From Bacteroidales bacterium (GTDB lineage: Bacteria; Bacteroidota; Bacteroidia; Bacteroidales; UBA932): a DNA stretch of 51,536 bases. The stretch is from assembly GCA_017626555.1 (NCBI GenBank), contig JAGAIM010000120.1:1-51536 (forward strand), given 5' to 3'. The position numbers were made by a program, and so were the translations under genes. This document shows, one piece after another, positions 6,549-33,336 of the stretch; position 1 is the stretch's first letter; each line of letters starts with the position of its first letter. Under the pieces are notes generated by a model. It made no database searches. It saw only the letters and a list, made by a program, of their open reading frames with translations, and was not told where the DNA came from.

Positions 6549-6551
6549 CAG

Positions 6552-16410: not shown

Positions 16411-16439
16411 TTGTATTAAGTTTTTTTTGATTAAATTTG
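16411..16439 (+). promoter_or_regulatory. Promoter of the glpT-phosphoesterase-SusCD operon
   Basis: TTG at 16,411-16,413, an 18-base spacer, and TAAATTTG at 16,432-16,439 match the Bacteroidota promoter. The next gene starts at 16,472, giving a leader of about 27 nt. No comparable promoter was found in the short gaps further down the operon, and the next terminator is at 28,486. Confidence 0.65.
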
Positions 16440-16471
16440 CAGGTTATAAACTACTAACCGTAACTCCAGAT

Positions 16472-17854
16472 ATGGCAAAATTCTTTGATCCGCCTCAGGC
16501 GAAACCGCTTCTTCCGAAGGAGAAAATTGACAGCGTCTATAAGTCAATGAGATTTAAAGTGTTTATGGGATCTTTTCTTGGCTATGCCGCTTATTATCTT
16601 GTAAGAAAGAACCTTTCACTTGCCGCTCCTGATATGATTGCGGAGGGACTTGTGGATAAGCAGGGAGTGGGAATCGCAGCGTCGGCTGTATCCATCGCAT
16701 ACGCATTCAGTAAATTCATAATGGGAACCCTTTCGGACCGTTCCGATGCCAGAAAGTTCCTGACAGTAGGTCTTGTGATCGCATCTCTTGTGATGATGTC
16801 GGTCGGTTTTCTTCCTTTTTCTGCTGCCAATGCGGCTCTGAATGTGGCTATGCTTTTCGTACTGATGCTTTTTGTGGGTATTCTTTCCGGTATGGGATGG
16901 CCTCCTTGCGGACGTATGATGGCATATTGGTTCTCCAATAATGAGAGAAGTTTCAAGATGTCCCTCTGGAATACTTCCCACACTATAGGTGCAGGTACGC
17001 TCGGAATCCTTGCCATCTTCGGTGTAGGGATTTTTGCTGATATGGGCATAGAACAATCGTGGAGAGCCAACTTTGTTGTACCTTCGGCATTCGCTCTGCT
17101 TCTTGCACTGTTCTGCTGGTGGTCACTGCGTGATACTCCTGAATCCTGCGGGCTTCCTTCTGTAGCCGATTGGAGAAATGACCATTCGGGCGTGAAGACC
17201 AAGGAAAAAGTGGGCGAGAAAGTACCTTTCAAGACACAACTCTTTGATTATGTTCTCAAGAACAAATGGATATGGATGATAGCCTTGGCAAATGCTTTCG
17301 TATATATGGTAAGGTATGGTGTGGGTGACTGGTCGCCTACATATCTGCAGGAGACCGGCATTATGACAGGCGAAGAGAGCAAACTGGCCTTTTCTATCCA
17401 TAACTATGTCGGTGCTGTCGGCACAATTGTCTGCGGATGGATTTCCGCTAAATTCTTCAAGGGCAAATGTGCACCTCCTAATATCATCTTTATGGGTCTC
17501 GTACTTGTTGGCTGTCTTATTTATTGGCAGGTTCCTGCTCTTGCAGCCGCAACAGGCATCGCTGCCAAAGTTTGGGTATATGTCGCTCTCATCCTCATCG
17601 GATTCTGCATCTACGGCCCTGTGGCTCTTGTCAGCATCCAGGCTCTCAATCTCGTGCCTAAGAATGCGGCAGGTACTGCAGCGGGTTTCGTAGGGCTCTC
17701 AGGTTACCTTATCGGTGACTCTCTCCTCTCGAAGATCATCGTCGGAGGAATTGCAGACAAGAGTTGGGATATGGCCAACTTCACAATGGTTATCGGTGCA
17801 GCACTTGGAATACTCTTGTGCGCCCTGACTCTTAAATCGGAAAAGCAGGCGTAA
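16472..17854 (+). CDS. glpT: Glycerol-3-phosphate transporter-like MFS protein (OPA family)
   Basis: A 460-residue, 12-helix inner-membrane antiporter of the organophosphate:phosphate family. It shares the GlpT signatures GYAAYYLVRKNLSLA, SIAYAFSKFIMGTLSDRSDARKF, GMGWPPCGRMMAYWFSNNE, LWNTSHTIGAG and VYMVRYGVGDWSPTYL. These hold the arginine of helix 1, the arginine of helix 7 and the central histidine that bind the phosphate of glycerol-3-phosphate in E. coli GlpT. It exchanges external glycerol-3-phosphate for internal phosphate. A start at 16,385 is in frame but lies before the promoter, so ATG 16,472 is preferred. A phosphoesterase gene follows after 19 nt. UhpT-like specificity for hexose phosphate is the main alternative. 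Confidence 0.87.
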   Translation: MAKFFDPPQAKPLLPKEKIDSVYKSMRFKVFMGSFLGYAAYYLVRKNLSLAAPDMIAEGLVDKQGVGIAASAVSIAYAFSKFIMGTLSDRSDARKFLTVGLVIASLVMMSVGFLPFSAANAALNVAMLFVLMLFVGILSGMGWPPCGRMMAYWFSNNERSFKMSLWNTSHTIGAGTLGILAIFGVGIFADMGIEQSWRANFVVPSAFALLLALFCWWSLRDTPESCGLPSVADWRNDHSGVKTKEKVGEKVPFKTQLFDYVLKNKWIWMIALANAFVYMVRYGVGDWSPTYLQETGIMTGEESKLAFSIHNYVGAVGTIVCGWISAKFFKGKCAPPNIIFMGLVLVGCLIYWQVPALAAATGIAAKVWVYVALILIGFCIYGPVALVSIQALNLVPKNAAGTAAGFVGLSGYLIGDSLLSKIIVGGIADKSWDMANFTMVIGAALGILLCALTLKSEKQA

Positions 17855-17873
17855 TTGCTTATAAATAAGTAAA

Positions 17874-19817
17874 ATGTCAATGAAAAGAATTGCTTTTATT
17901 TTAATGTGTCTAGCGTCGGCTTTCGTTTTGCCGATGCTTGTTTCGTGTGAAAAGGAACCTGATTCAGGCGGCGTTACAGAGGAGCCTCTTGAGTTCCTTA
18001 TCAGTCTTCCAGAATCGGTTTCAGGAGCGGCAGGTGATATTGTTGCAGTGAAATTCTATTCAGGAAAAGGGCCGAAAATGGGTGATGTCATCGTTCTGAA
18101 GAAGTCAGCAGAAGAGATTCTGTGCAGTATCGTAGGTGTTTCTTCGGATAGTTTCAGTTTCAAGATATCCGCTCAGGTCGAAACCGGGAAATATGTTTTC
18201 AGCATCAGACGCGGTTCCCAGACCAAAGCAATAGGGGAAATTTCATTCGAGATTGAAAAAAGAGTCGAGATATCCGAGAAGGAAGGCTTTAATGTATATG
18301 GTCTGATTTCGTGCGATGGTGTCGGAGTCCCTGGGGTTGTCGTTTCAGATGGAGTGGAAGTTTGTACGACAGATGAAAACGGCTTATACTATCTGGCATC
18401 CAAGGAATACAACAGACTTGTGTTTATGTCAGTACCTGCCGGATACGAGGCTGCATCTGAAGGAATCCTTCCAAACTTCCATAAGACACTGGACGGTAAC
18501 TCAAAGACCACAGAAAGAGCAGATTGGACTCTGACCAAGGTCAATAATGCTGACCACGTGATGTATGTGCTTGGCGATATGCACCTTGCTGACAGAACCA
18601 GAGACCTGGTGCAGTTCGCAGATTTTACGACCGATCTCAATCAGCAGATCGCAGCCAATAAGTCAAAGAAACAGTATGCACTGACCTTGGGAGATATGAC
18701 TTGGGATCTGTACTGGTATAGTAATGCATACGACCTTTATTCATATATTAATACTATGAATTCGAAGGTGAGCGGCTTGCAGATTTTCCACACCATCGGT
18801 AATCACGACCACGATATGATGGCTGACGGTGACTTCAATACTGTCACAGCATTCAAATCAAAGGTCGCTCCTACTTATTATTCCTTTAATATAGGTAATG
18901 TGCATTATGTGGTTCTTGATAATATCCTCTGCACAAATGTGCCGAAGGATGACGGAAGCGGCAGAGATTATAATTCGAGTCTGACTACAGACCAGATCAA
19001 TTGGCTTAAAAAGGATCTTTCATACGTTGATAAGTCCAAGACGCTGGTCATCACTATGCACGCACAGATGTACAATGAGAACGGCAGTTCCGCTATGGGC
19101 TATGCTTCAGAATTGGAACAGATATGCTCTGGCTACAAGACTCACGTAATCAGCGCCCATACCCACGTTGTGTGGAACAATGACAATTCAGCATCCGGAG
19201 GAATCTTCCATCATAACAGCGGAGCGATATGCGGAACCTGGTGGTGGACAGGATATTATACTGCCGGTCTGGGACTTTGCAAGGACGGTTCTCCTTCAGG
19301 ATACTATGTGTATGAAATGAACGGTAACGACGTAAAGTGGAGATTCAAGCCTACAGGAAAGGGATTCGATTATATGTTCCGTACATACGATAGGAACCAG
19401 ATCGCTCTCACGAGTGCCAACTTTACGCCTGATGCAAAATCAGACAAGGCGGCTGCATTCGAGAAGTCTGCTTCGCACTGGGTGTCAAAAAGTACTGATA
19501 ACTATGTGTATATCAATGTGTTCGATTATGATCCATCCTGGAATATAGAGGTTACTGAAAATGGTAAGGCTCTTACTACTGAACTTGTAAAGGCCAAGGA
19601 CCCTCTTCATCTTGTATCATACGAGGCTAAGAGATATAATGCAAATGCGAATCCTACGTCAAGTTTCAATGCATATTCCGTATCTTCTCACTTCTTCAGA
19701 GTCAAGGCTTCTTCTTCTGCCTCTACTCTTGAAATCAAAGTTACGGACAGATTCGGCAACACTGCTACGGAGAGTATGAAACGTCCGAAGGCGTTCTCTA
19801 TAAATGCATATAAATAA
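17874..19817 (+). CDS. Calcineurin-like metallophosphoesterase lipoprotein
   Basis: A 647-residue lipoprotein (lipobox ending LVSC, Cys25). Order: an immunoglobulin-like N-terminal domain (about 35-130), a small beta domain of the MetallophosN kind (about 137-215), the catalytic domain (about 225-480) and a C-terminal beta domain of the MetallophosC kind (about 490-647). Metal-ligand motifs are intact: GDMHLAD (234-240), GDMTWD (273-278), GNHDHD, HAQ and SAHTHVVWN. It should cleave phosphate mono- or diesters at the cell surface or in the periplasm. It lies between glpT and susC in one apparent transcript and is a paralogue of the N-terminal half of the fusion gene at 31,093, sharing GTWW and DGSPxGY. 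The substrate is not proven. Confidence 0.88.
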   Translation: MSMKRIAFILMCLASAFVLPMLVSCEKEPDSGGVTEEPLEFLISLPESVSGAAGDIVAVKFYSGKGPKMGDVIVLKKSAEEILCSIVGVSSDSFSFKISAQVETGKYVFSIRRGSQTKAIGEISFEIEKRVEISEKEGFNVYGLISCDGVGVPGVVVSDGVEVCTTDENGLYYLASKEYNRLVFMSVPAGYEAASEGILPNFHKTLDGNSKTTERADWTLTKVNNADHVMYVLGDMHLADRTRDLVQFADFTTDLNQQIAANKSKKQYALTLGDMTWDLYWYSNAYDLYSYINTMNSKVSGLQIFHTIGNHDHDMMADGDFNTVTAFKSKVAPTYYSFNIGNVHYVVLDNILCTNVPKDDGSGRDYNSSLTTDQINWLKKDLSYVDKSKTLVITMHAQMYNENGSSAMGYASELEQICSGYKTHVISAHTHVVWNNDNSASGGIFHHNSGAICGTWWWTGYYTAGLGLCKDGSPSGYYVYEMNGNDVKWRFKPTGKGFDYMFRTYDRNQIALTSANFTPDAKSDKAAAFEKSASHWVSKSTDNYVYINVFDYDPSWNIEVTENGKALTTELVKAKDPLHLVSYEAKRYNANANPTSSFNAYSVSSHFFRVKASSSASTLEIKVTDRFGNTATESMKRPKAFSINAYK

Positions 19818-19851
19818 AACACAACCAAATATTAACTAAACTAATGATTTT

Positions 19852-22800
19852 ATGAGATTATTCAAATCTTTCGCTGCTTCTCTGGCTCTGCTTCTGGCAG
19901 GATTCAGTGCATTTGCACAGACCAGAGAATTGTCCGGTGTCGTGCTGGACGCGACTGACTTCCCTCTGATCGGAGTGGCAGTCATCGTTGACGGAACGAC
20001 AAACGGAGTTATGACGGCTGAGGATGGAAGTTTCGCACTCACAGTGCCGGCTTCCGAGGTAGTCCTCAATGTGTCATCTCTCGGTTATGAAACAAAACTT
20101 GTGACAGTACCTTCAACTCAGGATAAAGTCACAATTTATCTGGCCGAAGACAATATGATGATCGAAGAGACTGTCGTTGTCGGTTATGGTACACAGAAGA
20201 AGGTCAATCTGACCGGTGCTGTGGGAGTTGTTGATGAAAAAGCACTTCAGGACCGTGTTGCTCCAAACTTGAGTTCTATGCTTCAGGGTTCTGTACCGGG
20301 ACTCTCCATCTCTACTTCAAGCGGAAACCCTGGCAGTACAGGAACATTGCAGATCCGTGGTACCGGTTCCATCAATGGTGGTAATCCTCTTGTCCTGATC
20401 GATGGTGTCGAGGGTGAGATGGACCGCGTGAATCCTAACGACGTAGAGTCTATCTCAGTCATCAAGGATGCTTCTGCAGCGGCTGTCTATGGTGCCCGTG
20501 CTGCATTCGGAGTCATTCTCATCACAACCAAGAAGGGTAATGATGATGATGGTAATGCGGTAGTACGTTATAGCGGACGTTTCGGTTGGGAACAGCCTAC
20601 AACATCTACCGATTATGAGACTACCGGTTATTGGTCTGCATATATTCACAATATGTTCTGGAAAGCAGATGATGGCGTATCACAATACATCAAGTACAAT
20701 GATTATGATATGCAGCAACTCCTTCTCCGTATCAATGACAAGACAGAGCATCCTGACCGTCCTTGGGTGACTATCCAGAACAGAGGCGGTAAGGACAAGT
20801 GGGTTTATTATGCTAATACCGACTGGTGGCACGAGATGTTCAACGACCAGCACCCTGTTCAGCAGCACAATGTTTCTATCAGTGGTGGAAACAAGAAGGT
20901 GAAGTATTACCTTTCCGGTGCTTACAATAGGCAGACTGGTATCATCAAGGCTCGTCCTGACTTGTTCGAGAAATACAATCTCCGCTCGAAGATTGATTTC
21001 AAGATCAATAAGTATATGAGAATGAGTAACAATACTTCATTCTATAATTCAGTATATGACTATCCGGGAGTTTCTAATGTCCAGAATGCTATTGCATACG
21101 CTGCAAACCACGGTCTGGCTTGCTTTACTCCGAAGAACCCTGATGGTACTTGGGTATATGGTACAGACTTCCTCGGATATAAGGTGGCAAACGGACGTCA
21201 CGCCATCTATGGCAATGACAAGAACATCAACCTTGACAGGAAGATGGACTTTGCCAATACAACTGAACTCAAGATCACTCCGATCAAGCAGTTGACCATC
21301 ACTGCAAACTACACTTACAGATTCCACCAGAACCGCAATACCAACAGAAGTACAGCATTGGTATATTCTCAGTACCCTGGAAGTACAGCGGTTTATACTG
21401 GTAAAGGTACAGCAGGTGAGGATTCTCTTACTGAGGAGGTTGACAGTTGGTCATATAACGCAGCCAACCTTTTCGCGACTTACGAAGATACTTTCAAAGA
21501 TGCTCATCACCTGACTGTGATGGCCGGTGGCAATCTCGAGTATTCTTATAGAAAGGATCTTTCTACAACCGGTTATTATCTTCTTACCGAAGAACTCAAT
21601 GACTTCGATCTCGTAGGTCTTAACGATCAGGGAGTCAAGGAGTTCCTGGCTAGCGGAGGACAGACTGAATATGCACTCCTCGGTTTCTTTGCACGTGTCA
21701 ACTACGACTATAAAGGAAAATACCTCTTTGAGGTGTCCGGACGTTATGATGGTACATCGAAATTCGCGAAGGGAAGTCGTTGGGGACTCTTCCCATCAGC
21801 ATCTGCCGGTTGGCGTATCTCCGAAGAGAACTGGTTCGCTCCTGCTAAGGATGTCGTAAGCAACCTCAAACTCCGTCTTTCATACGGTAGCCTCGGAAAC
21901 CAGAATGTTACGGCATACAAGTTCATCCGTAAGATCCAGACATACGATTTCGCAGGATTCAGTTTCGGAGAAGGCAGTTCGACTGCAAGTTACACATCAC
22001 TTTCTGCTCCTAATGCCGGCGACCTTACCTGGGAGACATCACAGCAGTACAATCTCGGTGTTGATGCCGGCCTCTTCAATGATAGGTTGACATTTACTGC
22101 GGAGGCATATATCCGTGATACCAAGGATATGCTCACTGACGGTGTGGCTCTTCCAGGCGTATATGGCGCTTCAGAGCCTGATATGAACGCCGCCGATCTT
22201 CGTACTACAGGTTATGAACTTGCTATCGGCTGGAGAGATCAGATCAGCCTTTTCGGAAAGCCTTTCGGATATAATTTAGGTGCGACATTGTCTGACTTCA
22301 GAACTGTCATTACCAAGTATGACAATGAGAAGAAGACCTTTGCAAAGGACTATTATGTCGGAATGGAACTCGGTGAGATATGGGGATTTGAGATTGACGG
22401 ACTTTTCCAGTCAGATGCAGAGGCTAAGGCTTATGCAGAACAAGTCAACCTCAACTACATTAATAAGAGATTGTATGGTGGCTGGCTTGCCGGTGACCCA
22501 AGATATGTAGATATCAATGGTGACGGTAAGATTTCTGTGGGTGCCAACAGCGTTGACGATCCAGGTGACCGCAAGATTCTCGGTAATTCTATCGCATCTC
22601 TTCAGTATGGTTTGACTGCTGGATTCGACTTTATGGGCTTTGACTTCTCAATCTTCTTCCAGGGAACAGGTAACCACTATTGGTATCCGAATGCTGAGTC
22701 TATGGCGTTCTGGGGTCCTTATTCCCGCCCATATTGCTCATTCCTTCCTCAGAATTTCCTCAGCAATGTGTGGAGCGAGGAGAATCCTGATGCATATTTC

Positions 22801-23133
22801 CCACGCCCTCGTGCGTATGCAGCCTTCACTGATGGAGCACCTCTTGCAAATGTCAATAGCCGCTATCTTCAGAATCTGCGCTATCTGAGACTTAAGAATC
22901 TCTCAATCGGATACACAGTTCCTAATACCAAGAAGATCGGTATAGAGAAGATCCGCATTTATTTCTCAGGTGAGAACCTTGCTTATTGGTCTCCTTTCAA
23001 GAAATATAGCAAGCATATCGATCCGGAAGCAGCGTTCGACAGAACTGATTCTTCCGGTGAGCCAACACGTTACAACAATGCTTTCTACCCTTGGCAGAAG
23101 ACATTTATGTTTGGAGTTGACCTCACATTCTAA
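19852..23133 (+). CDS. SusC/RagA TonB-dependent outer-membrane transporter
   Basis: A 1,093-residue outer-membrane importer: signal peptide (ending SAFAQ), carboxypeptidase-like regulatory domain (about 25-105, LSGVVLDATDFPLIGVAVIV), TonB-box region ETVVVGYGTQKK, plug with QIRGTGSINGGNPLVLIDG, and a beta-barrel ending FGVDLTF. Unlike the SusC at 1,716 it has no STN domain, so it is not expected to signal to an anti-sigma factor, and no sigma/anti-sigma pair is nearby. It lies 34 nt after the metallophosphoesterase gene and its SusD partner follows. The context of glpT and phosphoesterases suggests a phosphate-bearing substrate; that is inference. Confidence 0.93.
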   Translation: MRLFKSFAASLALLLAGFSAFAQTRELSGVVLDATDFPLIGVAVIVDGTTNGVMTAEDGSFALTVPASEVVLNVSSLGYETKLVTVPSTQDKVTIYLAEDNMMIEETVVVGYGTQKKVNLTGAVGVVDEKALQDRVAPNLSSMLQGSVPGLSISTSSGNPGSTGTLQIRGTGSINGGNPLVLIDGVEGEMDRVNPNDVESISVIKDASAAAVYGARAAFGVILITTKKGNDDDGNAVVRYSGRFGWEQPTTSTDYETTGYWSAYIHNMFWKADDGVSQYIKYNDYDMQQLLLRINDKTEHPDRPWVTIQNRGGKDKWVYYANTDWWHEMFNDQHPVQQHNVSISGGNKKVKYYLSGAYNRQTGIIKARPDLFEKYNLRSKIDFKINKYMRMSNNTSFYNSVYDYPGVSNVQNAIAYAANHGLACFTPKNPDGTWVYGTDFLGYKVANGRHAIYGNDKNINLDRKMDFANTTELKITPIKQLTITANYTYRFHQNRNTNRSTALVYSQYPGSTAVYTGKGTAGEDSLTEEVDSWSYNAANLFATYEDTFKDAHHLTVMAGGNLEYSYRKDLSTTGYYLLTEELNDFDLVGLNDQGVKEFLASGGQTEYALLGFFARVNYDYKGKYLFEVSGRYDGTSKFAKGSRWGLFPSASAGWRISEENWFAPAKDVVSNLKLRLSYGSLGNQNVTAYKFIRKIQTYDFAGFSFGEGSSTASYTSLSAPNAGDLTWETSQQYNLGVDAGLFNDRLTFTAEAYIRDTKDMLTDGVALPGVYGASEPDMNAADLRTTGYELAIGWRDQISLFGKPFGYNLGATLSDFRTVITKYDNEKKTFAKDYYVGMELGEIWGFEIDGLFQSDAEAKAYAEQVNLNYINKRLYGGWLAGDPRYVDINGDGKISVGANSVDDPGDRKILGNSIASLQYGLTAGFDFMGFDFSIFFQGTGNHYWYPNAESMAFWGPYSRPYCSFLPQNFLSNVWSEENPDAYFPRPRAYAAFTDGAPLANVNSRYLQNLRYLRLKNLSIGYTVPNTKKIGIEKIRIYFSGENLAYWSPFKKYSKHIDPEAAFDRTDSSGEPTRYNNAFYPWQKTFMFGVDLTF

Positions 23134-23165
23134 TGTCTGTTTGAAATATGTTAATGATGAAAAAT

Positions 23166-24998
23166 ATGAAAAAATATTTGATAATTGCTTTTGCTGCAAT
23201 CGCTTCATTCACTGCTTGCGACTTTTTCGAGAGGCAGCCGCTGTCAGATATGACTGAGGATATCTATTTCAGGACGGCAGAAGACTTCGAACTTTTTACA
23301 AATCCGCTGTACAATAATCTGTTGGATAAGCATCCTTATAATCATCAGAGTGATCATTATATCAGATTGTCGCTTTCCAACCTTCTTCACGGAGGATCTT
23401 ACAGAACCGTTCCTGCTTCAGGTGGTGGCTGGTCTTGGACAGATCTCAGGCGTATCAATACTCTTCTTGCCAGAATGGATTCTTGTGAGGATGAGCAGGT
23501 GAGGGCTGAGTATGAGGCTCTTGCACGCTTCTTCAGGGCGTTCTTCTACTATGAGAAGGTTAAACTTTTCGGAGATGTTCCTTGGCTTGATGAGGAACTC
23601 AGTTCTGAATCCGAGAAACTTTATGCTCCTAGAGATTCCAGAGAGTTCATTCTTCAGAAGATGCTTGAGGATGTAAATTTCGCTATTGATAATCTTCCTG
23701 CAGGTGTTTCCACTTTCCGTGTAAACAGATGGGCTGCACTTGCACTCAAGTCCCAGTTCTGCTTGTTTGAAGGAACATTCAGAAAATATCATTCTCTCAC
23801 TATCGATCCGGCAACTGCAGGCGTAGAGACTGTGAACGATTACAGATTCTATCTCACAGAGGCTGCTTCGGCTGCAGAAGAGATTATGAATGATGGTCCT
23901 TACAAACTTTATTCTACCGGTAATCCGGATAAGGACTATCGTATGCTTTTCGCTCAGGAAGATGCCAGCAAGGATGAGTTCATTCTTGCAGTATATTACA
24001 ATCACCCTGCAGGTATATACAACAACTCGACTGCGATGTCTATCCTTCCTGCACAGGGACGTCTTTCCGCAACAAGGAAGTTTGTCAACACATATCTTAT
24101 GGCTGATGGTTCGAGGTTCACAGATATCCCGAATTATGAGACTATGGAGTATTATGACGAATTCCAGAACAGAGACCCGCGTCTTGCGCAGACTTTGAGG
24201 GCTCCAGGATATATGCGTATCAATGGTGATGCTGTCATTGCACCAGATCTCTCCTGCACTTGTACCGGTTACCACATTGCAAAATGGACTATGGCTGCTG
24301 ATGCGAATGATGGAGACTCCGACCGTGCAGACCGTTCTTCAAACGACACTCCGGTATATCGTTTTGCAGAGGTTCTGCTGAATTATGCAGAGGCTAAGGC
24401 CGAACTCGGTCAGTTCGATCAGACTGTGGCTGACAAGACCATCAATCTACTCCGCGACCGTGTCGGTATGACTCGTATGAATGTGGCTTCACTTACCAAA
24501 GACCCATATCTTACAGATCCAAAGACTGGCTATACAAATCCGATACTCCTCCAGGATCCGAATGTTGTCCATATCCTTGAAGTAAGAAGAGAAAGATGTA
24601 TCGAACTTGCTCAGGAAGGCGATTTCAGATGGGAGGGTCTTCTCAGATGGAAAGAAGGCAAATGTGTCGAGCAGGATATGTACGGTATATATTTCCCTGG
24701 TGCCGGACAGTATGACCTCGATAAGAACGGAACTATCGATGTATGGCTTTATGGCGCATCTGAGGCTCAGCCGACAGTGGATAAGACAAACCCTATGCTT
24801 GCCGCTTGCGCTGTACTTAGAATCGGTTCTGATATATTCCTCAGCGAGGGTACTTCAGGATATGTAGATCCTCAGCAGAAGAGCGAACATACATTCAATG
24901 AAGGCAGGGATTATTTCTATCCTATTCCTATCGATGAGCGTTCATTGAATCCTAATTTGACTCAGAATCCAGGATGGGATGACGGTCTTGACTTTTAA
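23166..24998 (+). CDS. SusD/RagB family outer-membrane lipoprotein
   Basis: A 610-residue surface lipoprotein, partner of the preceding SusC. The lipobox ends FTAC (Cys18) and the mature part opens DFFERQPLSDMTEDIYF. SusD helices appear in LARFFRAFFYYEKVKLFGDVP and PVYRFAEVLLNYAEAKAELG, and the C-terminal SusD region has ERCIELAQEGDFRWEGLLRW and ends NPNLTQNPGWDDGLDF. Two earlier in-frame ATGs (23,148 and 23,157) are possible, but the compact signal peptide MKKYLIIAFAAIASFTAC favours 23,166. It is 11 nt upstream of the BACON lipoprotein gene. Confidence 0.92.
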   Translation: MKKYLIIAFAAIASFTACDFFERQPLSDMTEDIYFRTAEDFELFTNPLYNNLLDKHPYNHQSDHYIRLSLSNLLHGGSYRTVPASGGGWSWTDLRRINTLLARMDSCEDEQVRAEYEALARFFRAFFYYEKVKLFGDVPWLDEELSSESEKLYAPRDSREFILQKMLEDVNFAIDNLPAGVSTFRVNRWAALALKSQFCLFEGTFRKYHSLTIDPATAGVETVNDYRFYLTEAASAAEEIMNDGPYKLYSTGNPDKDYRMLFAQEDASKDEFILAVYYNHPAGIYNNSTAMSILPAQGRLSATRKFVNTYLMADGSRFTDIPNYETMEYYDEFQNRDPRLAQTLRAPGYMRINGDAVIAPDLSCTCTGYHIAKWTMAADANDGDSDRADRSSNDTPVYRFAEVLLNYAEAKAELGQFDQTVADKTINLLRDRVGMTRMNVASLTKDPYLTDPKTGYTNPILLQDPNVVHILEVRRERCIELAQEGDFRWEGLLRWKEGKCVEQDMYGIYFPGAGQYDLDKNGTIDVWLYGASEAQPTVDKTNPMLAACAVLRIGSDIFLSEGTSGYVDPQQKSEHTFNEGRDYFYPIPIDERSLNPNLTQNPGWDDGLDF

Positions 24999-25009: not shown

Positions 25010-28000
25010 ATGAAAATAATCAGACAATTAATACTAGTATTGGCCTCGCTTGCAGTCTTCTCATCTTGTATGGAAGAGGAGAAACTTGTGGCAACGGCTA
25101 TTATGACGGATAAACCGTCATTGGAATTCGGTATCGAGGATACATTGGCTGTCGCACTGACTGTGTATGCCGATGCTCCTTGGACCGTAGAGTGCGCTGA
25201 CTGGATTACCGTAGAGCCGTCAACCGGATCTGCAGGTGAGAATGTTGTTACTGTAATCGTTCAACCTAATATCAGAGAAGGTCTTGCAGACAGACCGCGT
25301 AAAGAGGTCCTGACTTTCGAGGGACGCGATATGTATGCCCGCGCCTATGTTGATGTGCTCCAGGCCGGTGATAAATACCGTGACCTTGTTGAGGGTACAC
25401 TTGCTGATGCTTTTGCTCAGCCTCTCGAGACTTTCGTCGGCGTAAAGGATGTTCAGGTTGTGGCTCTGGCATCGGAAGGATTCATCGTAAAGGATGAGAC
25501 TGCATATTCTTATGTGGAAGCAGAGCAGGAGGTGACTATAGGTGACAAGGGAAATGTATATTCGTACGTTTCTACATTCAACGGCCTTCCATCTTTGAAG
25601 GATACCGATAGGTTTAAAGTGAGTTCTAATTCTGCAGTCGATTATTCTTCTGCAAAAGACATTACAAGTGAACTTCAGGCATACGAGGCATCCCAGATAG
25701 AACTTATTTCCGTTACAGGAAAACTTGTATCCAAGAAACTTGAACTTTATTATGCGGAGGGTGAGGCACGTCCTGTCGAGCCGGATTCCATCAAAGTTGA
25801 GTTCCTCAATACCCACGAGTCATTGAAACTGAAAGACTATGACGGTTGGCTCGTTGAGGCCAAAGGATATACAGTCGGCAGTGCTACAGGTGTGGTTTAT
25901 GTCGTGCCGGTATCTTTCAAGGGTATCAAGTCACTTGAGACTATCTATTTCTCTGATGATTTCTCTTGGATTGCTCCGATGTCTGCCGCAGATGCTGCCG
26001 GTGATGCAGTCGGAGACAATAACCCATCAACCACTGCACCTAACGTCTGGAAGATGACTTCAAGCCAGGAGTTCTTTGATAAATTCAATGAAATCGGCTA
26101 TCAGTATCTTTGGGGTACAGTCGGTGACAAGGAATTCAAACTTGGCCCAGAGCAGGCTCCTAACGGTGGTGTCAGCAAGGAAGGATCAATGTACATTCAG
26201 AAGGATTATCTCAAGTTCGGTCAGACAAGTTACAATGGTGCTCTCAGACTCCCAGCATTGTCTGCGATTCCGGATCAAGTGAATATTGTAATCGACTTTG
26301 ATTGGTGCTGGCAGATAACAGAATCAAAGAATCCTGACGTGATGACGCTTACAGTAGAATCTAATAATGGTAAGTTTGAAAGTACAGGTACTCCTGTCTC
26401 ACATAATCTTGAGTCTGCACAGCCTCAAGAGGCGGAAAATAGTGAGATTGAATGGCAGCACGTTTCTATAGTACTTACTGAAGCAACAGCAGAGACAGTC
26501 CTGACTATCCGTCCTACTTATGCCGATCCGGACAAGCAGAACAAGGCAAGACATCAGAACCGCTGGTATCTCGATAATATCAAGATCATTGAGCATACAG
26601 GTTCTGTATCAGTTGCTGAACCGACCGAGGCTGAAGTTTCAATCTCAATGGAGAACAATATCATCTTCGAGGCTGCACAGACTGAGCCTATTACATTTGA
26701 CTTTGAGTCAGATCAGGAGGCAACTCTCACATTAGGAGCAGATTGGGCATTCTTCATTGATGCTGATGATAAGGAGGTGTCTTCACTTACAATCGCTGCT
26801 TCCACTCCAACCACTGTCAAGGTCGGTGCTAAGGAGCATACAGAAAGCGAACCACGTACTACAGAGATCACAATAGAGTCAGGTCTTACTGTAGAGACCA
26901 TCCCTGTCAAGCAGATGTCTCCAGGCCAGAAGGTCGAGCCGTTTGTAAGTATTGTCGGTGGAAATGGCACAAAGGTTTCATCTGATGAGGGTACTTTGAA
27001 CATTACTGTCCAATCTAATGTCGAGTTCGAGGTTGAATCAGATGTTGCCTGGGCAACAGTCGAGGCTGTCCCTGCAACCAAGGCTACAGTTGACTTCACT
27101 CCGTACGTTATCAAGTATGAGGCTAATACAGTGCCTGAGACAAGAACAGCACATATCCGTGTATTCAATGCCCAGAAGAACCTTGAGTCTGTATATACTA
27201 TAGAGCAGGCTGCTTTTGAGGTAGGCGTATTCTTCCAGGATGACTTTGCTTGGGTTGCTCCGTTTGTCGATGCAGATATCGCTCAGGGACGTACTCAGGG
27301 TGACAGTATGCTTGATAACGCTCAATATACTGTAAGTTCTTCATACGGTCTTGAAGGATTTGAGCAGAAGTTGACAGAACTCGGTTACGAGGCTCTCTTC
27401 CCAGAATCGAAGGCTATCTATGTGATGAAGGGTAACTATCTGAAGTTCAGTAAGGGTAAGAATACTAATGGTATCCGCTTGCCTAAGACCAACTTCTATG
27501 GTGAGTCAACTGTTGCTCTCTCTTTCGACTGGGGAATCAATATTGGTGCTGATGGCCCGGATCCGGTTGAACTTGAGGTCGTTATCGAAGGAAACGGTAC
27601 GATCGGTGGACAGCAGAAGTCCGCTCCGATCAAGCATACTGCTGGAGATTGGGAATGGCAGACAGAGACAATCGTTATCTCTGGCGTTGACAATGATACG
27701 AGAATATCCATCAGACCTACGGCTTTCACCGGTGTTGTTGATGCATCAGGATACTACCGTTGGTTCCTTGATAATGTGAAACTGGCCAAGAGCGATGCCC
27801 CTGTTGGCGGAACTCTTCATACAGTTTTCCCATTCCCATACGATCCTACGTTTGATGCAAGTAAGGTGGAAAACCCTACCAACTGGAATCTTGCTGAGGG
27901 ATGGATCCTGTCAGAGGATGGTAAATCCAAACTTTCTGCACATAATCCGGATGGCTCTGCTTTGAAGGTTACTTATAAGTATGAGGCAAGTTCAGATGAA

Positions 28001-28462
28001 GGAGTTACCAAAGATCACGTACGAGTTCTTGCAACCGGTTTGGCCAAGGATGCATATTGGTTGTTTGAAGTACCTGTGGTGGATATGCCTGCAGGTAAAT
28101 ACAACATCAAATACACCCAATCGTCTTCAAATACAGGAGCGAATTATTTCCTTGTCGAGGTCTCTGTGGATGGCCAGAACTGGACAGCAGTAGATAGCAA
28201 GACCTCTACTGAAACTTACAAGGATGGTTCAGAGCCAAGAGAAGTGACTTACACTTACGCATTGAATAAGTTAGGTGCTAATATTGCCAATATGGCTTAT
28301 AAGGTCGATCTTACATATAGTGCACCGGCACTTCCTGGTAGCAATACCCTTTACATAAGGGCTAAGGTGGCAGATGATATGGAATACCGTGCGACCAAAC
28401 CTCTCGCTTCAGGCGGAACCAATCGTATCTGGGGACCTTGTGAAATTACTTTCGCAGAGTAA
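25010..28462 (+). CDS. Large BACON-domain lipoprotein with duplicated beta-sandwich modules (surface binding protein-like)
   Basis: A 1,150-residue lipoprotein (lipobox ending FSSC) with no recognisable catalytic motif. Visible parts: a BACON-like domain (about 30-125, DAPWTVECADWITVEPSTGSAG); an OB-like DUF5689 type domain (about 130-300); a beta-sandwich module (about 305-525, from FSDDFSWIAPM to RWYLDNIKI); two more BACON-like domains (about 540-735); a second copy of the sandwich module (about 740-925, FQDDFAWVAPF to RWFLDNVKL); and a distinct C-terminal beta domain. It holds the position of the surface glycan-binding protein in Sus-like loci, directly after susD and before the operon terminator. 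Binding function is inferred from position and domain type. Confidence 0.82.
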   Translation: MKIIRQLILVLASLAVFSSCMEEEKLVATAIMTDKPSLEFGIEDTLAVALTVYADAPWTVECADWITVEPSTGSAGENVVTVIVQPNIREGLADRPRKEVLTFEGRDMYARAYVDVLQAGDKYRDLVEGTLADAFAQPLETFVGVKDVQVVALASEGFIVKDETAYSYVEAEQEVTIGDKGNVYSYVSTFNGLPSLKDTDRFKVSSNSAVDYSSAKDITSELQAYEASQIELISVTGKLVSKKLELYYAEGEARPVEPDSIKVEFLNTHESLKLKDYDGWLVEAKGYTVGSATGVVYVVPVSFKGIKSLETIYFSDDFSWIAPMSAADAAGDAVGDNNPSTTAPNVWKMTSSQEFFDKFNEIGYQYLWGTVGDKEFKLGPEQAPNGGVSKEGSMYIQKDYLKFGQTSYNGALRLPALSAIPDQVNIVIDFDWCWQITESKNPDVMTLTVESNNGKFESTGTPVSHNLESAQPQEAENSEIEWQHVSIVLTEATAETVLTIRPTYADPDKQNKARHQNRWYLDNIKIIEHTGSVSVAEPTEAEVSISMENNIIFEAAQTEPITFDFESDQEATLTLGADWAFFIDADDKEVSSLTIAASTPTTVKVGAKEHTESEPRTTEITIESGLTVETIPVKQMSPGQKVEPFVSIVGGNGTKVSSDEGTLNITVQSNVEFEVESDVAWATVEAVPATKATVDFTPYVIKYEANTVPETRTAHIRVFNAQKNLESVYTIEQAAFEVGVFFQDDFAWVAPFVDADIAQGRTQGDSMLDNAQYTVSSSYGLEGFEQKLTELGYEALFPESKAIYVMKGNYLKFSKGKNTNGIRLPKTNFYGESTVALSFDWGINIGADGPDPVELEVVIEGNGTIGGQQKSAPIKHTAGDWEWQTETIVISGVDNDTRISIRPTAFTGVVDASGYYRWFLDNVKLAKSDAPVGGTLHTVFPFPYDPTFDASKVENPTNWNLAEGWILSEDGKSKLSAHNPDGSALKVTYKYEASSDEGVTKDHVRVLATGLAKDAYWLFEVPVVDMPAGKYNIKYTQSSSNTGANYFLVEVSVDGQNWTAVDSKTSTETYKDGSEPREVTYTYALNKLGANIANMAYKVDLTYSAPALPGSNTLYIRAKVADDMEYRATKPLASGGTNRIWGPCEITFAE

Positions 28463-28485
28463 TCAGGTTCATACAATACATTACA

Positions 28486-28523
28486 GAAGGAGGATGACCA
28501 TTGGTCACCCTCCTTCTTTTCTT
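28486..28523 (+). terminator. Terminator of the glpT-SusCD operon, probably bidirectional
   Basis: A 14-bp stem (28,486-28,499 with 28,503-28,516) closes a 3-nt loop and is followed by CTTTTCTT-like T-rich sequence. One pair is A-C on the + strand but U-G in the minus-strand RNA, so it may also end the converging Rpn gene, which stops at 28,541. Confidence 0.75.
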
Positions 28524-28540: not shown

Positions 28541-28849
28541 TTAAAGAGCATTAATCTCCAGTCCGGTCAGTTCAGAGACCTTTTCTTTCGAGAACCCTTC
28601 GGCCAGAAGTTTAGACGCAATGTTCCTAGCCATCTCTCTTTCTCCTTCCGCTCTACCTTCCGCTCTACCTTCTGCTCTTCCTTCTGCTCTCCCTTCCGCT
28701 ATACCTATAGCCCTTCCTTTGGCTCTTCCTTCTCTGAGCCCTTTCTCCATCATCTCGGCAGAAATCTGGGCTGTCCTTTCTGCAAGCCCTTTTGCGATGC
28801 CTTCTTCAACGTGCTCGTCAATAATGTTAAGGATGTCATTTTCTGTCAT
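28541..28849 (-). CDS. Candidate internal in-frame product of the Rpn gene (RpnS-like antitoxin)
   Basis: An internal ATG (28,849-28,847) in the Rpn frame begins MTENDILNIIDEHVEEGIAK and would yield a 102-residue protein made of the Rpn C-terminal domain with the AEGR repeats. It is preceded by AGGAGG (28,860-28,855) with a 5-nt spacer, a consensus Shine-Dalgarno sequence. In characterised Rpn systems the separately translated C-terminal part dimerises through a helix with variable four-residue repeats and blocks the full-length nuclease. The caution is that Bacteroidota ribosomes usually ignore such sequences, and the hexamer also encodes Glu-Glu-Gly. Confidence 0.5.
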   Translation of the reverse strand: MTENDILNIIDEHVEEGIAKGLAERTAQISAEMMEKGLREGRAKGRAIGIAEGRAEGRAEGRAEGRAEGEREMARNIASKLLAEGFSKEKVSELTGLEINAL

Positions 28850-29644
28850 AATACCCTCCTCATATTTAATACGCTGTTCAATTGTCATCTTGGCGAGTTC
28901 GGACTGGATGAACAGATCCTCGATTTCCGTTCCTTTTACAGCATCAGGACAATTCTCTAAAGAGAACATATTCTTGATGCTGTACATCCAGATATCCTCC
29001 AATGAACTGCATTCTTCAAGTTCCTTAGTGAAACTGTGCAGGTCAATGAATACAATATTTGTTCCGTCTCCAAGTTCTTCCTTAGTTTCAATGTTTACAT
29101 ATCTGTAAGTGGATATGTATGGATTCTGCTGCATCTTTGCATTAATAGAATTCCAGTTTTTGAAATTCAGAAAACTTACAACATACAAAGGTTGGAAATC
29201 ATAATCCCATTTCTTTGCTGCTGCAGAATTCTCACCTCGTTTTAACTTTCTGTGTGCCTTTGCTACCTGGTCGTGTAGGACTAGTGAAGAATAATACACA
29301 GCCCTTTTGTTAAAAAACTTCTGACTCCAATTCTGCATTTCAACCTGAAAGCAGTTGCCCTCTTCGTCTTCGCAATAAACGTCAAATCTTGATGATCTTT
29401 CCTCTTCTGTTAAGCCTGGGTGCTCCGTGTTGCGATATTCCAATCTTCTGATCCGCATACCTAGCAACCTGTTCAACAAATGCATCAATACATTTTCGCT
29501 TCCTATGCGTCCTAGCACAATCTTGAAGCCCTTGTCCATTGTCAGATCCGCATACCTGTAAAGTTTGCTTCTGATGACCTGATACTGGACTCCGTCAATC
29601 TCCACTACCCGTCCTTTCGGGGTTCTCTCTGAATCTGTAATCAT
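28541..29644 (-). CDS. Rpn-family PD-(D/E)XK nuclease (RpnL-like; often annotated as putative transposase)
   Basis: A 367-residue protein. The N-terminal half is a PD-(D/E)XK nuclease fold with RFDVYCEDEEGNCFQVEMQ (about 90-108), giving the D-Xn-E-x-Q catalytic set of Rpn proteins. The rest of the core includes AVYYSSLVLHDQVAKAH and PLYVVSFLNF. The C-terminus carries tandem four-residue AEGR repeats (about 319-337) and a helical end, KLLAEGFSKEKVSELTGLEI. Rpn proteins are DNA endonucleases; some act as phage-defence toxins restrained by a small protein made from an internal start in the same gene. It lies opposite to and between two phosphoesterase operons. No inverted terminal repeats flank it, so there is no sign that it is itself a transposon. 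Confidence 0.88.
   Translation of the reverse strand: MITDSERTPKGRVVEIDGVQYQVIRSKLYRYADLTMDKGFKIVLGRIGSENVLMHLLNRLLGMRIRRLEYRNTEHPGLTEEERSSRFDVYCEDEEGNCFQVEMQNWSQKFFNKRAVYYSSLVLHDQVAKAHRKLKRGENSAAAKKWDYDFQPLYVVSFLNFKNWNSINAKMQQNPYISTYRYVNIETKEELGDGTNIVFIDLHSFTKELEECSSLEDIWMYSIKNMFSLENCPDAVKGTEIEDLFIQSELAKMTIEQRIKYEEGIMTENDILNIIDEHVEEGIAKGLAERTAQISAEMMEKGLREGRAKGRAIGIAEGRAEGRAEGRAEGRAEGEREMARNIASKLLAEGFSKEKVSELTGLEINAL
28645..28704 (-). repeat. Tandem 12-bp repeat inside the Rpn gene
   Basis: Five consecutive 12-base units related to CTTCCGCTCTAC (plus-strand reading) at 28,645, 28,657, 28,669, 28,681 and 28,693. They encode the repeated tetrapeptide AEGR on the minus strand. Degenerate flanking units encode GRAKGRAIGI. 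In-frame copy-number change would lengthen or shorten the helix without breaking the gene. Confidence 0.85.
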
Positions 29645-29841: not shown

Positions 29842-29849
29842 TATATTTG
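29842..29849 (+). promoter_or_regulatory. -7 promoter element of the MBL/fusion phosphoesterase operon
   Basis: TATATTTG matches TAnnTTTG and lies 24 nt before the MBL start codon. Upstream DNA is a long T-rich run (ACTTTTTTTTATCTTTTTCC), so the -33 element cannot be placed with confidence. Confidence 0.55.
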
Positions 29850-29873: not shown

Positions 29874-31091
29874 ATGAAAAGATTACTCTTGATTTTGGCG
29901 GCCACCGCCGCGTTCATTCAGATTTCCTCTGCCCAGGAATACCTCCCTAAATGGCAGGAAGGATATATGGATATCCATACCATCGCTACAGGAAGAGGTG
30001 ATGCAACCTTCATTGTTATGCCGGATGGTACTACCCTTATGATCGATGCCGGTGACAACGGCAAACTCAAGGATCCGCAGCATCCTGACACGACAAAGAG
30101 GGCAGGAGAGTGGCAGGCAGTGTATATGAAGAAGGTGATGGAGGATCTTCCGAGCAAGACGAAGGTGGATTATGCCCTTATCACTCACTTCCACGACGAT
30201 CATATGGGATGTGTCCGTCAGATGCTTCCGGGCAAGAACGGCTACGGCCTTTCGGGAATCACACTTGTCGGTGAGTTTGTTGAGTTCGGTACTTTGATTG
30301 ACAGAGCATATCCGGATTATGATTTCCCTTCCAAGAAGAATGTGAACAATGCCAACAAGGGATTTATGCCAGAGTATCATAAGTTCGTGGAATACAAGCA
30401 GGCTCAGGGAATGAAGGTGGAGAAGTTCGATGTCGGTGCTCTGAACCAGATAAAGATGCTGAACAATCCTAAGAAATACAAGAAGAATTTTGAGATCCGC
30501 AATCTTGCAGCCAACGGTGAGGTCTGGACCGGTATCGGCACAGAGAAGGCAAAACAGTACAAGGGCGATCCTAAACTATTCGACGAGAATGTGAACTCGA
30601 CTGCACTCGTGATCACATACGGTGACTTCAGGTATTACAATGGCGGAGACCTCAGCGGCGGAAACTGGAGCATATACAAGTCGGATGAAAGGGATATGGA
30701 GACTCCTGTGGCCAAAGTCTGTGGCAATGTGGATGTGATAAAGGCCAATCATCACGGATATTATGACACCTGCAACGGCTTCTTTATGAACACTCTCTCA
30801 CCTGAAGTCGTGATTATCGATGCACGAAGCAACAATCATCCGGTGCCTTCGACTATGACAAGAATGACAGATCTTCTTGTATGGCCTGACCAGGGTGAGT
30901 TCTATATCACCGTTGACAAGGCTCGCGAGAAACTTAGCGAGGAACTTTGGGCACACTTCAAGCCTTGGGGACATATTGTAGTGAGAGTCTATGAGGACGG
31001 AAAGCAGTATCAGGTCTTCGTTCTTGATCCTGACAGACTTGACCATCCGATAAAGTATGTTTCTGAAATGAAGACAGCAGGAGAATATTGA
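29874..31091 (+). CDS. Secreted metallo-beta-lactamase-fold hydrolase (ComEC/Rec2-like)
   Basis: A 405-residue protein with a signal peptide (MKRLLLILAATAAFIQISSAQ). The MBL fold follows: DGTTLMIDAGDNG strand, the metal motif ITHFHDDHMG (HxHxDH at residues 105-110), further candidate ligands in YNGGDLSGGNW, and KANHHGYYD near the end. The HHG ending resembles ComEC-type MBL domains, which in some cases act as nucleases or phosphodiesterases. A longer frame from 29,766 is open but begins before the promoter. Its stop codon is one base from the start of the phosphoesterase-GDPD fusion, so the two are probably translated together. The substrate is unknown; a phosphodiester is plausible from context. 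Confidence 0.83.
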   Translation: MKRLLLILAATAAFIQISSAQEYLPKWQEGYMDIHTIATGRGDATFIVMPDGTTLMIDAGDNGKLKDPQHPDTTKRAGEWQAVYMKKVMEDLPSKTKVDYALITHFHDDHMGCVRQMLPGKNGYGLSGITLVGEFVEFGTLIDRAYPDYDFPSKKNVNNANKGFMPEYHKFVEYKQAQGMKVEKFDVGALNQIKMLNNPKKYKKNFEIRNLAANGEVWTGIGTEKAKQYKGDPKLFDENVNSTALVITYGDFRYYNGGDLSGGNWSIYKSDERDMETPVAKVCGNVDVIKANHHGYYDTCNGFFMNTLSPEVVIIDARSNNHPVPSTMTRMTDLLVWPDQGEFYITVDKAREKLSEELWAHFKPWGHIVVRVYEDGKQYQVFVLDPDRLDHPIKYVSEMKTAGEY

Positions 31092-31092
31092 T

Positions 31093-33336
31093 ATGAAGAA
31101 GTTATTTTTGGCAATTTGCACGTTTGCAGTATTCTGCTGCGTTGCTCAAGCAAGAAAAGTGTCCGGGCAGGTTATTTCCGGTGAAGAGAAACTTTCGGGA
31201 GTGATAGTTACTGACGGTACAAGTTTCACCCAGACTAATAAGAACGGTAAATTCTCCTTTGATATCAAGGATGATGCAGAGTTCGTCTATATCGTGACTC
31301 CAGCCGGTTATGCTGGTGAGTGGTCTGGTGGCGTTCCGGCTTTTTTCAAGAGAGCAGAAGGTGTGAAGAAATTTACCTTTGATCTAGTAAAGACAGATAC
31401 CAAGGGGGACTACAATATTGTCGCAGTCGGTGATCCTCAGCCATATACCGAGGAACACTTCAGCATATTTGCAGGTGAACCTCTTGATGATCTTTCGAAG
31501 ACTACAAGGTCTCTCGGGCTGTCAGCAGTGGGAATTGCGCTTGGCGACATCAGTTGGGATGTTCCTGAGCGTCTTGACGACTGGAAACGTGAGATAGTCC
31601 GTACGGATATTCCTTTCTATCCTGTGATCGGAAACCACGACCACGTCCGTGGACAGGGAGGAGATCTTCAGAGTTCAGCGGAATATCGTAAGAGGATGTG
31701 CCCTGAAAACTATGCTTTCTTCATTGGTGATGATGTGTTCTTCTCCGTTGATAATATCATTTACTCTGCTGAGAAAGGTTATGATGAGGGATATGCTGAT
31801 CACGTCCTTGCATTCGTCAGGGGAGTGATGAAATATGTGCCGGCAGATGCTGATGTATATGTAGCCCAGCATTCTCCTCTTGCAGGACGTGATGTCGGAA
31901 AGAAAATCCTTGGCACTTCTGATATGCTCAATCTTATTGAGGGACACGAGACTCTTTTCCTTTCGGGACATAATCACCTCAGCAAGCCATATTCGTATGG
32001 AAGCAATGTGATTGAACACAATATCCCTGCAATCTGCGGTACCTGGTGGGATGCGTACCATTGCGCGGATGGTAGCCCAAGAGGATACAAGGTATATACT
32101 AAGGAGTCAGATAAGTTGACCTGGTATTATAAGGCTATCGGACAGGATCGGAATTTCCAGGTAGAGATTTTCAAACCGGGACAGACCCTCAGACATCCGA
32201 ACAGTGTCATTGCCAATGTATGGGATTGGGATCCGGCTTGGAAGGTTGAGTGGTATGAAGACGGCAGATATATGGGAAAGATGGACAAAGTAGAGGAGTT
32301 CTCTCCATTGCATATAGCGGAAATGAAGGCTAAGTACGAGCCTCTCGGCAAGGAACCTTCTTCCTGGAAGACCACCAGGGTAGGCGAGCATTACTTCGCT
32401 GCTACTCCAAGCCAGTATGCAAAGACTGTGACGGTGGCTGTGACAGGACGTTTCGGCCAGAGTTGGGTTTATGATGTGGATATGACGGATTATGTTGATG
32501 TACAGGCTCATAGAGGAGGTGCAGGCCTTATGCCGGAGAATACCATAGAGGCTATGAAGCACGCTCTTGATATGGGTGTCAATACTCTAGAACTTGATCT
32601 TCAGATAAGCCAGGACGGACAGATAGTCGTGTCCCACGACCCATATTTCCATCATCGTTATGCAATCCGCCCAGATGGAACTCATATCCTGCAGGATGAT
32701 CCTAAAGAATATATCTATACGATGCCTTACAGCGAGGTCGCAAGATATGATGTGGGAAGCCGTCCGAGCGAGGTGTGGCCGGATAAGGCTTGTATAAAGA
32801 CAGTCAAGCCTCTTGCAAGCGATCTGATAGATTTCGTGGAAAATTATACTGAGGAGAATGGAATGTCTCCTGTGCGATATAACATTGAGATCAAGTCCAA
32901 GGATGCCGCCGGCGAAGGACAGAACTGGCCTACATACGACAGATTTGTGAGCGAGTGCTGTAAACTTCTTCATTCGAAACATCTTGGCGACAGGCTTGTG
33001 GTGCAGAGTTTCGATGTAAGGGCTCTTAATTATATGCACGAGAAATACCCAGAATTCATCCTGTCATATCTTGTGGATGCAAAGGCAGGCGAATTCGATA
33101 CCTTTATGGCAAAACTGAAGTTCACTCCGCAGTGGCTGAGCCCGCATCACAGCATTACAGATGAGGCTCTTGTGGCAAAATGTCGTGAGAAAGGCATCAG
33201 GATTGTTCCTTGGACAGTTGACAAGCCAGATGATATCAAAAGGATACTTGATCTGAAGGTTGAAGCCATCATCTCGAATTATCCTGACAGAGTGCTTCAG
33301 CAGACCAGAGGATACGCAATCCCTCTACACAGATAA
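31093..33336 (+). CDS. Secreted metallophosphoesterase-glycerophosphodiester phosphodiesterase fusion
   Basis: A 747-residue protein with a signal peptide (cleavage near AQA-RK). Residues about 22-100 are a beta domain; 105-345 are a calcineurin-like catalytic domain with GDPQPY (113-118), GDISWD (151-156), GNHDH (180-184), QHS (259-261) and SGHNH (291-295). A MetallophosC-like domain (about 350-465) follows. Residues about 468-747 are a complete GDPD TIM barrel: QAHRGG with His473-Arg474, Glu482 in MPENT, Glu500/Asp502 in LELDLQ and His515 in VVSHDP. GDPD enzymes cut glycerophosphodiesters to glycerol-3-phosphate and an alcohol, matching the nearby GlpT carrier. The usual His of the first motif (DxH) is Gln, a known variant. 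The two stop codons of this gene and the converging ABC-F gene abut. Confidence 0.9.
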   Translation: MKKLFLAICTFAVFCCVAQARKVSGQVISGEEKLSGVIVTDGTSFTQTNKNGKFSFDIKDDAEFVYIVTPAGYAGEWSGGVPAFFKRAEGVKKFTFDLVKTDTKGDYNIVAVGDPQPYTEEHFSIFAGEPLDDLSKTTRSLGLSAVGIALGDISWDVPERLDDWKREIVRTDIPFYPVIGNHDHVRGQGGDLQSSAEYRKRMCPENYAFFIGDDVFFSVDNIIYSAEKGYDEGYADHVLAFVRGVMKYVPADADVYVAQHSPLAGRDVGKKILGTSDMLNLIEGHETLFLSGHNHLSKPYSYGSNVIEHNIPAICGTWWDAYHCADGSPRGYKVYTKESDKLTWYYKAIGQDRNFQVEIFKPGQTLRHPNSVIANVWDWDPAWKVEWYEDGRYMGKMDKVEEFSPLHIAEMKAKYEPLGKEPSSWKTTRVGEHYFAATPSQYAKTVTVAVTGRFGQSWVYDVDMTDYVDVQAHRGGAGLMPENTIEAMKHALDMGVNTLELDLQISQDGQIVVSHDPYFHHRYAIRPDGTHILQDDPKEYIYTMPYSEVARYDVGSRPSEVWPDKACIKTVKPLASDLIDFVENYTEENGMSPVRYNIEIKSKDAAGEGQNWPTYDRFVSECCKLLHSKHLGDRLVVQSFDVRALNYMHEKYPEFILSYLVDAKAGEFDTFMAKLKFTPQWLSPHHSITDEALVAKCREKGIRIVPWTVDKPDDIKRILDLKVEAIISNYPDRVLQQTRGYAIPLHR

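Follow-up and report, generated by a model that had tools for sequence, protein, structure and literature searches.

Systems built on SusC and SusD are by default read as glycan importers, and in a polysaccharide utilization locus (PUL) a tandem SusC-SusD pair is accompanied by surface-type lipoproteins and carbohydrate-active enzymes (CAZymes). In the phosphate utilisation system (PUS, PusCD) loci of Flavobacterium johnsoniae, which are defined by their induction at low phosphate, periplasmic phosphodiesterases and phosphatases take the place of the CAZymes, and PUSI is proposed to target phosphodiesters, with lipid head groups and nucleic acids as the most likely ones (PMC8115612). Here we analyse a locus at positions 16,411 to 33,336 of a 51,536-nucleotide stretch from a herbivore-gut Bacteroidales bacterium (contig JAGAIM010000120.1; hereafter the window), which encodes a GlpT-type organophosphate carrier, a metallophosphoesterase (MPE) lipoprotein, SusC, SusD, a BACON-domain lipoprotein, a metallo-β-lactamase (MBL)-fold hydrolase and a fusion of an MPE with a glycerophosphodiester phosphodiesterase (GDPD) domain. 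We consider it likely that this locus is a SusCD-type nutrient system for glycerophosphodiesters, a reading that draws on the predicted functions of its genes and on their recurrence in relatives.

In gene content the window locus agrees with the PUS loci, a SusCD pair being joined by phosphodiesterases and phosphatases instead of CAZymes. The statement in a preliminary description of the window that SusCD loci for such substrates are not well described was too strong: SusCD/phosphodiesterase loci have already been proposed in Flavobacterium (PMC8115612). The new part is the form linked to GlpT and GlpABC. GlpT, GlpA, GlpQ and glycerol-3-phosphate (G3P) do not appear in the main text of PMC8115612, whereas loci of the window type are tied to G3P uptake and, in relatives, to G3P oxidation; a GlpT/GDPD-linked SusCD locus was not found described in the open-licence PMC literature searched. 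The divergent glpTQ and glpABC operons of Escherichia coli likewise combine a GDPD, GlpT and, as in relatives of the window, GlpABC, and four loci (L102, L103, L104 and L106) match this content in the order glpABC-GDPD-glpT. However, the E. coli stretch lacks SusCD, MPE and BACON genes, and E. coli GlpQ aligns locally with the window GDPD domain over 79 residues only, 29 of them identical. Bacillus subtilis GlpQ is also a GDPD-family enzyme that releases sn-G3P from unsubstituted wall teichoic acid and head-group diesters, but it was studied in a Gram-positive and is not part of an outer-membrane uptake locus (PMC7086022).

Organization of the locus

The gene order and the boundaries of both units given in the preliminary description are borne out by the coordinates of the open reading frames (ORFs), with families assigned by Pfam and NCBIfam (Table 1). 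In the first unit, glpT, the MPE lipoprotein, SusC, SusD and the BACON lipoprotein follow each other with gaps of 19, 34, 14 and 11 bp, respectively, and end in a terminator-like hairpin; in the second, the MBL-fold hydrolase and the MPE-GDPD fusion are 1 bp apart. The earlier claim that glycoside hydrolases (GHs) and polysaccharide lyases (PLs) are lacking also holds, as Pfam scans of the seven locus proteins detected no GH or PL domain, and the locus is therefore not classed as a PUL. With a TonB-dependent SusC/RagA transporter next to a SusD lipoprotein, it nevertheless counts as a SusCD nutrient-uptake locus. A GH2 gene of the window belongs to a separate SusCD locus at 1716-10963.

The carrier shares 43% identity with E. 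coli GlpT, matches PDB 1pw4 with an E value of 1.2e-114 and keeps all of R45, K80, H165 and R269, residues with functional roles in GlpT. In the fusion protein, the GDPD domain (about residues 468-735) scores over the PF03009 gathering threshold, contains the HR...E.D...H segment that constitutes the GDPD motif and matches PDB 3ch0 (E 2.7e-54). The HxHxDH motif of the MBL-fold protein is invariant across 10 aligned sequences. The fold neighbours of its model are ComEC and the Pce/CbpE phosphorylcholine esterase. A specific role for this protein as phosphocholine esterase was not adopted: ComEC is the nearer of the two, and MBL relatives occur in ribokinase loci (L059, L060).

Table 1. Coordinates of features in the window
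Feature	Position	Strand	Remarks
Separate SusCD locus	96-10963		SusC, SusD, calcineurin-like phosphoesterase (weak ApaH-type match), GH2 beta-galactosidase-type gene
Major facilitator superfamily (MFS) carrier and LacI regulator	13714-16384		divergent; directly upstream of glpT
LacI regulator	15332-16384		candidate glpT regulator only
TAnnTTTG box	16432..16439	+	candidate -7 element 5' of glpT; weak
GlpT-type organophosphate:phosphate antiporter	16472..17854	+	starts with ATG; NCBIfam, PDB, alignment with E. coli GlpT
MPE, calcineurin-like phosphoesterase lipoprotein	17874..19817	+	MetallophosN, Metallophos and MetallophosC; lipobox by eye
SusC TonB-dependent outer-membrane transporter	19852..23133	+	TIGR04056, 888 bits (cut-off 368)
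SusD lipoprotein	23148..24998	+	PF07980/PF14322
BACON-domain lipoprotein, probable surface binder	25010..28462	+	PF13004, E 4.1e-9
Intrinsic-terminator-like hairpin with T run	28485..28520	+	3' of the BACON gene
PDDEXK_2 (Rpn-like) 'transposase' gene	28541..29644	-	between the two units
TAnnTTTG box	29842..29849	+	candidate -7 element 5' of the second unit; weak
Secreted MBL-fold metallohydrolase, ComEC/Pce-like	29874..31091	+	signal peptide by eye
Secreted fusion of calcineurin-like phosphoesterase and GDPD domain	31093..33336	+	PF03009, E 5.8e-36

A TAnnTTTG box, the motif of the Bacteroidetes -7 element, lies 5' of each unit. The box of the promoter claimed upstream of glpT is thus present, at 16432, but since the motif is about as frequent as chance predicts (29 copies in the window, both strands), the promoters are plausible only. 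The terminator that had been placed near 28,486 was recovered as a hairpin with a T run starting at 28485; this hairpin is absent from the terminator list of a generic sigma-70/terminator scan, which returned 34 promoter-like and 10 terminator-like sites, where shuffled sequence gave 33.3 and 15.4, respectively.

The PDDEXK_2 gene that separates the units in the window is not found in the BACON-MBL gap of the eight relatives compared. This gap measures 71-90 bp in five of them (L034, L035, L038, L039, L041) and 655-2056 bp, with other ORFs, in three (L037, L042, L044); judged by eye, all eight gaps hold a terminator-like hairpin, with a weak T run in L038 and L039. Because hairpins separate BACON and MBL in relatives also, glpT-BACON and MBL-GDPD are two conserved neighbouring units and not a single operon, and the idea of one long operon interrupted by an inserted gene was dropped. 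An Rpn-like gene with 50% identity to the PDDEXK_2 gene of the window is located 3' of BACON in L036, and in E. coli rpnE adjoins glpABC.

Recurrence of the gene set in relatives

Loci L034-L070 derive from an MPE pattern-seeded scan of a genome collection, in which 67 stretches matched and 37 were confirmed, while L071-L090 and most of L134-L152 were chosen from MPE, SusD or GDPD matches and L091-L130 from glpT matches. Furthermore, five queries were run against 101 relatives; counts over these use 120 SusD, 51 MPE and 43 glpT rows and 31 rows reaching the GDPD part, SusD matches being scored for up to 12 candidates per genome. At least three genomes belong both to this set and to L034-L070 (G024/L037, G039/L042, G046/L066).

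Among the 37 MPE loci, 14 have a same-strand glpT upstream of MPE, 12 of them with a gap of at most 21 bp, and in 16 SusC follows MPE at 20-72 bp. Of the 14 glpT-bearing loci, 8 continue with an MBL gene behind BACON; as to the other six, L040 has a different gene in this place, the Rpn-like gene of L036 lies near the end of the stretch, and the stretches of L043, L045, L046 and L066 stop at or before BACON. The cassette of L040 is otherwise conserved but carries two unrelated ORFs (7513-9876; ATPase-like and integrase-like by eye) inserted between glpT and MPE.

In the 101 relatives, a same-strand SusD is located within 8 kb of 26 of the 51 MPE matches, and within 20 kb of these 26 cassettes glpT is present in 9 cases, GDPD in 8 and either in 12. 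For cassettes in glpT-bearing genomes, 9 of 23 have glpT within 20 kb, where 0.4 would be expected for a 40-kb span of 2.4 Mb (binomial 6.6e-11, uncorrected for kinship). The pairing of glpT and MPE is thus far above chance. Likewise, in the 3.09 Mb genome of the window (G000), 2 of 3 MetallophosC matches and 1 of 2 GDPD matches fall within 17 kb, together with the sole glpT match that reaches E 1e-100, a clustering of more than chance.

The arrangement of the set varies. The carrier gene is placed upstream in line (window), divergently (L071, L075), convergently (L072, L078) or downstream in line (L081), and L074 combines the same set with a different SusD family (glpT-MPE-SusC-SusD(PF12771)-BACON-MPE-GDPD). 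A 62-row GlpT tree, which mixes loci picked by MPE, SusD, GDPD and glpT seeds and from which 2 duplicate rows were removed, shows at least 11 changes of the SusCD+MPE neighbourhood. Across the order, glpT was matched at E 1e-80 or better in 17 of 295 genomes. For the 17 glpT matches outside the own genome, SusC/SusD are one or two genes away in three (L111, L110, L122) and at a distance of four genes in L121; within the fetched stretches of the remaining 13, several of them short, none was found. Instead of standing only rarely beside SusCD, the outcome that would have spoken against the preliminary description, glpT and the phosphoesterases thus recur there, in several arrangements that combine MPE-SusCD-BACON with glpT, GDPD or both.

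These data also bear on the notion of an ordinary SusCD locus with glpT and GDPD as accidental neighbours. SusCD genes are dense in these genomes, with first-look SusD candidates often numbering 10-40 per 2-3 Mb, and the presence of any SusD within 15 kb of 13 of the 43 glpT matches is partly expected by chance. Owing to this density, proximity of SusCD to any glpT was not used as evidence. MPE and glpT, in contrast, abut, are paired far more often than chance allows and are repeated with a different SusCD type. Chance assembly is ruled out by the linkage of glpT and MPE in 14 of 37 loci and in 9 of 23 cassettes against 0.4 expected, and the accidental-neighbour explanation, to which we assign a very low probability, is largely refuted.

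Glycerol-3-phosphate metabolism and candidate substrates

In three loci (L036, L043, L045), glpABC is encoded directly upstream of glpT-MPE-SusC; GlpA, GlpB and GlpC of L036 and L045 score over the NCBIfam cut-offs, and those of L043 were judged by likeness. L111, from another genus of the same family, displays the order glpR, glpD-glpT-MPE-SusC-SusD-MPE-BACON, with a SusD closest to the PF12771 type. Of 20 distinct cassette genomes, 19 encode GlpA over cut-off, or 19 of 21 when that of the window is counted; by handle the number is 21 of 23, three pairs apparently representing one genome each, and the genome without GlpA is 58% complete. Across 60 same-genus genomes glpT and GlpA are associated (36/5/7/12; Fisher 1e-4, uncorrected for kinship and completeness). 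In L148 (G035), MPE, an S1/P1 nuclease, glpR and glpABC form one minus-strand gene run.

From gene content, order and recurrent linkage we infer the following biochemical steps and their localization. SusD and the BACON lipoprotein would act at the cell surface and capture a substrate that carries glycerophosphate, and the MPE lipoprotein, at the surface or in the periplasm, and SusC would trim and import it. The secreted MBL-fold and MPE-GDPD proteins may then cleave phosphodiester bonds in the periplasm, the GDPD domain freeing sn-G3P, which GlpT would swap against phosphate across the inner membrane; in most cassette-bearing relatives, G3P could then be oxidized by GlpABC or GlpD. The surface system for importing and dismantling a glycerophosphate substrate that was suggested initially is supported by the recurrent MPE-SusCD-BACON set with glpT or GDPD and by the G3P dehydrogenase genes in relatives.

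Organic-phosphorus scavenging of the PUS kind, in which SusCD would take in phosphodiesters mainly for phosphate under limitation of inorganic phosphate (Pi), has to be weighed against this proposal. According to PMC8115612, PUSI and PUSII are CAZyme-free and consist of SusCD with a phosphodiesterase or phosphomonoesterase, certain PUS clusters carry inner-membrane organophosphate transporters, and PhoA1 of PUSII is annotated as pf13653, named GDPD_2 by Pfam; the window for its part encodes two metallophosphoesterase domains, an MBL-fold protein and a GDPD. In relatives, however, the linked genes are those of G3P catabolism (glpABC, glpD, glpR). GlpT-type carriers, moreover, release Pi while importing G3P. 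As GlpT exchanges the two one for one, the cell would gain a glycerol backbone, usable as carbon or lipid precursor, and not net phosphate. Neither an ECF sigma factor gene nor a FecR gene adjoins the window locus, unlike in PUSI (ECF) and PUSII (FecR), a feature that is not defining (PMC8115612). Phosphorus scavenging therefore appears rather unlikely.

Several observations weigh against a glycerophosphodiester system. The top NCBIfam model of the window carrier, TIGR00712, is matched with 456.7 bits, under its curated cut-off of 632.55, and the protein is best called GlpT-type, not a TIGR00712 equivalog. GpdQ glycerophosphodiesterase is the nearest fold of the MPE model, a point in favour of such a system, but it is inseparable from purple acid phosphatases, and GpdQ, Lmo2642, Rv0805 and purple acid phosphatases are near-tied. 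SusD and the BACON protein are strongly acidic (net charge -30 and -75), which weakly disfavours a polyanionic ligand; charge was discarded as a ligand clue, as it gives no support. The locus counts rest on fragmented metagenome-assembled genomes (MAGs). Contig ends not being allowed for, 14 of the 26 cassettes are without glpT or GDPD nearby, and most glpT genes of relatives are not beside a cassette, MPE lying within 15 kb for just 10 of 43 (GDPD for 11). Furthermore, G000, although 95.4% complete (222 contigs), yields zero GlpA/GlpD-type matches (TIGR03377) and zero matches to the GpsA C-domain (PF07479), the latter being detected in 10 of 14 control genomes. A complete G3P catabolic pathway, which requires a G3P dehydrogenase, is consequently not found in G000. 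When fetched stretches totalling 2.08 Mb were searched by tblastn with E. coli GpsA, nothing was found, a weak result since these are chosen, overlapping neighbourhoods. The missing GlpA, GlpD and GpsA may reflect either an assembly gap or dependence on imported G3P or glycerol; G000 is possibly a G3P auxotroph.

In addition, the MPE and MBL families are not specific for glycerophosphate, because their remoter relatives L059 and L060 adjoin a ribokinase and a nucleoside-hydrolase-like gene and are without glpT. These belong to a second clade with the order MPE-(about 452 aa)-SusC-SusD (L054, L055, L058-L060, L064, L065, L067-L069), in which MBL occurs in L055, L058, L059 and L060 and L065 resembles L059/L060 by eye. 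This clade probably serves the acquisition of ribose or nucleosides. The window locus could alternatively scavenge nucleotides or nucleic acids, with MPE as nucleotidase or phosphodiesterase, MBL as ComEC-like nuclease and GlpT carrying another organophosphate. Gene-order maps of the window clade, however, contain glpT, GDPD and, in relatives, glpABC, with neither ribokinase nor nucleoside hydrolase; the clades differ in carrier, and nucleotide scavenging is an improbable explanation for the window. The MPE family seems to be common to several phosphodiester diets, the carrier marking which diet is used.

If the locus serves glycerophosphodiesters, it would act either on those of lipid head groups or on teichoic acid of the poly(glycerol phosphate) type. 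B. subtilis GlpQ frees sn-G3P from head-group diesters and unsubstituted wall teichoic acid, not from intact lipoteichoic acid, and is stopped by glycosylated or alanylated glycerol phosphate units (PMC7086022). Glycosidases are encoded in a few related loci, namely GH89 (alpha-N-acetylglucosaminidase) and GH31 in L085, GH31 and two GH2 in L047, GH31 in L110, and, next to glpT-SusCD in L122, a NAGPA phosphodiester glycosidase; they come from a non-systematic survey by BLAST against few GH references and Pfam on hand-picked neighbours. Such enzymes could fit substituted glycerol phosphates, whose sugar groups they might remove. A teichoic-acid utilization locus, by which a gut Bacteroidales would eat a Gram-positive wall polymer, is a tentative, rather doubtful variant. 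Since GpsA and GlpA/GlpD were not detected in the own strain, imported G3P might then even be its main source of membrane-lipid backbone.

Should the assignment to glycerophosphodiesters be correct, gut Bacteroidales use SusCD to obtain glycerol phosphate from phospholipid head groups or Gram-positive walls, and the PUS idea widens from phosphorus in soil Flavobacterium to the acquisition of carbon or lipid precursors in the gut. With the named gene set, such loci become recognizable in genomes, and the candidate substrates are narrowed to a few.

Source and flanking genes

The nearest relatives (L034-L041) are Bacteroidales/Bacteroidia MAGs recovered from samples of goat, roe deer, sheep, water buffalo, water deer and cow, and the remoter loci L046 and L067 belong to Candidatus Cryptobacteroides. 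Upstream of glpT, lacI matches are absent from the gene-order maps of L034, L037, L041, L042 and L044, and in L035, L038, L039 and L040 a lacI gene separates the MFS gene from glpT. The top NCBIfam model of the MFS carrier in the window is TIGR00893 (D-galactonate type), with a score under the cut-off. The separate SusCD locus at the start of the window also encodes, as read by eye, a probable extracytoplasmic function (ECF) sigma factor and a FecR-like anti-sigma factor.

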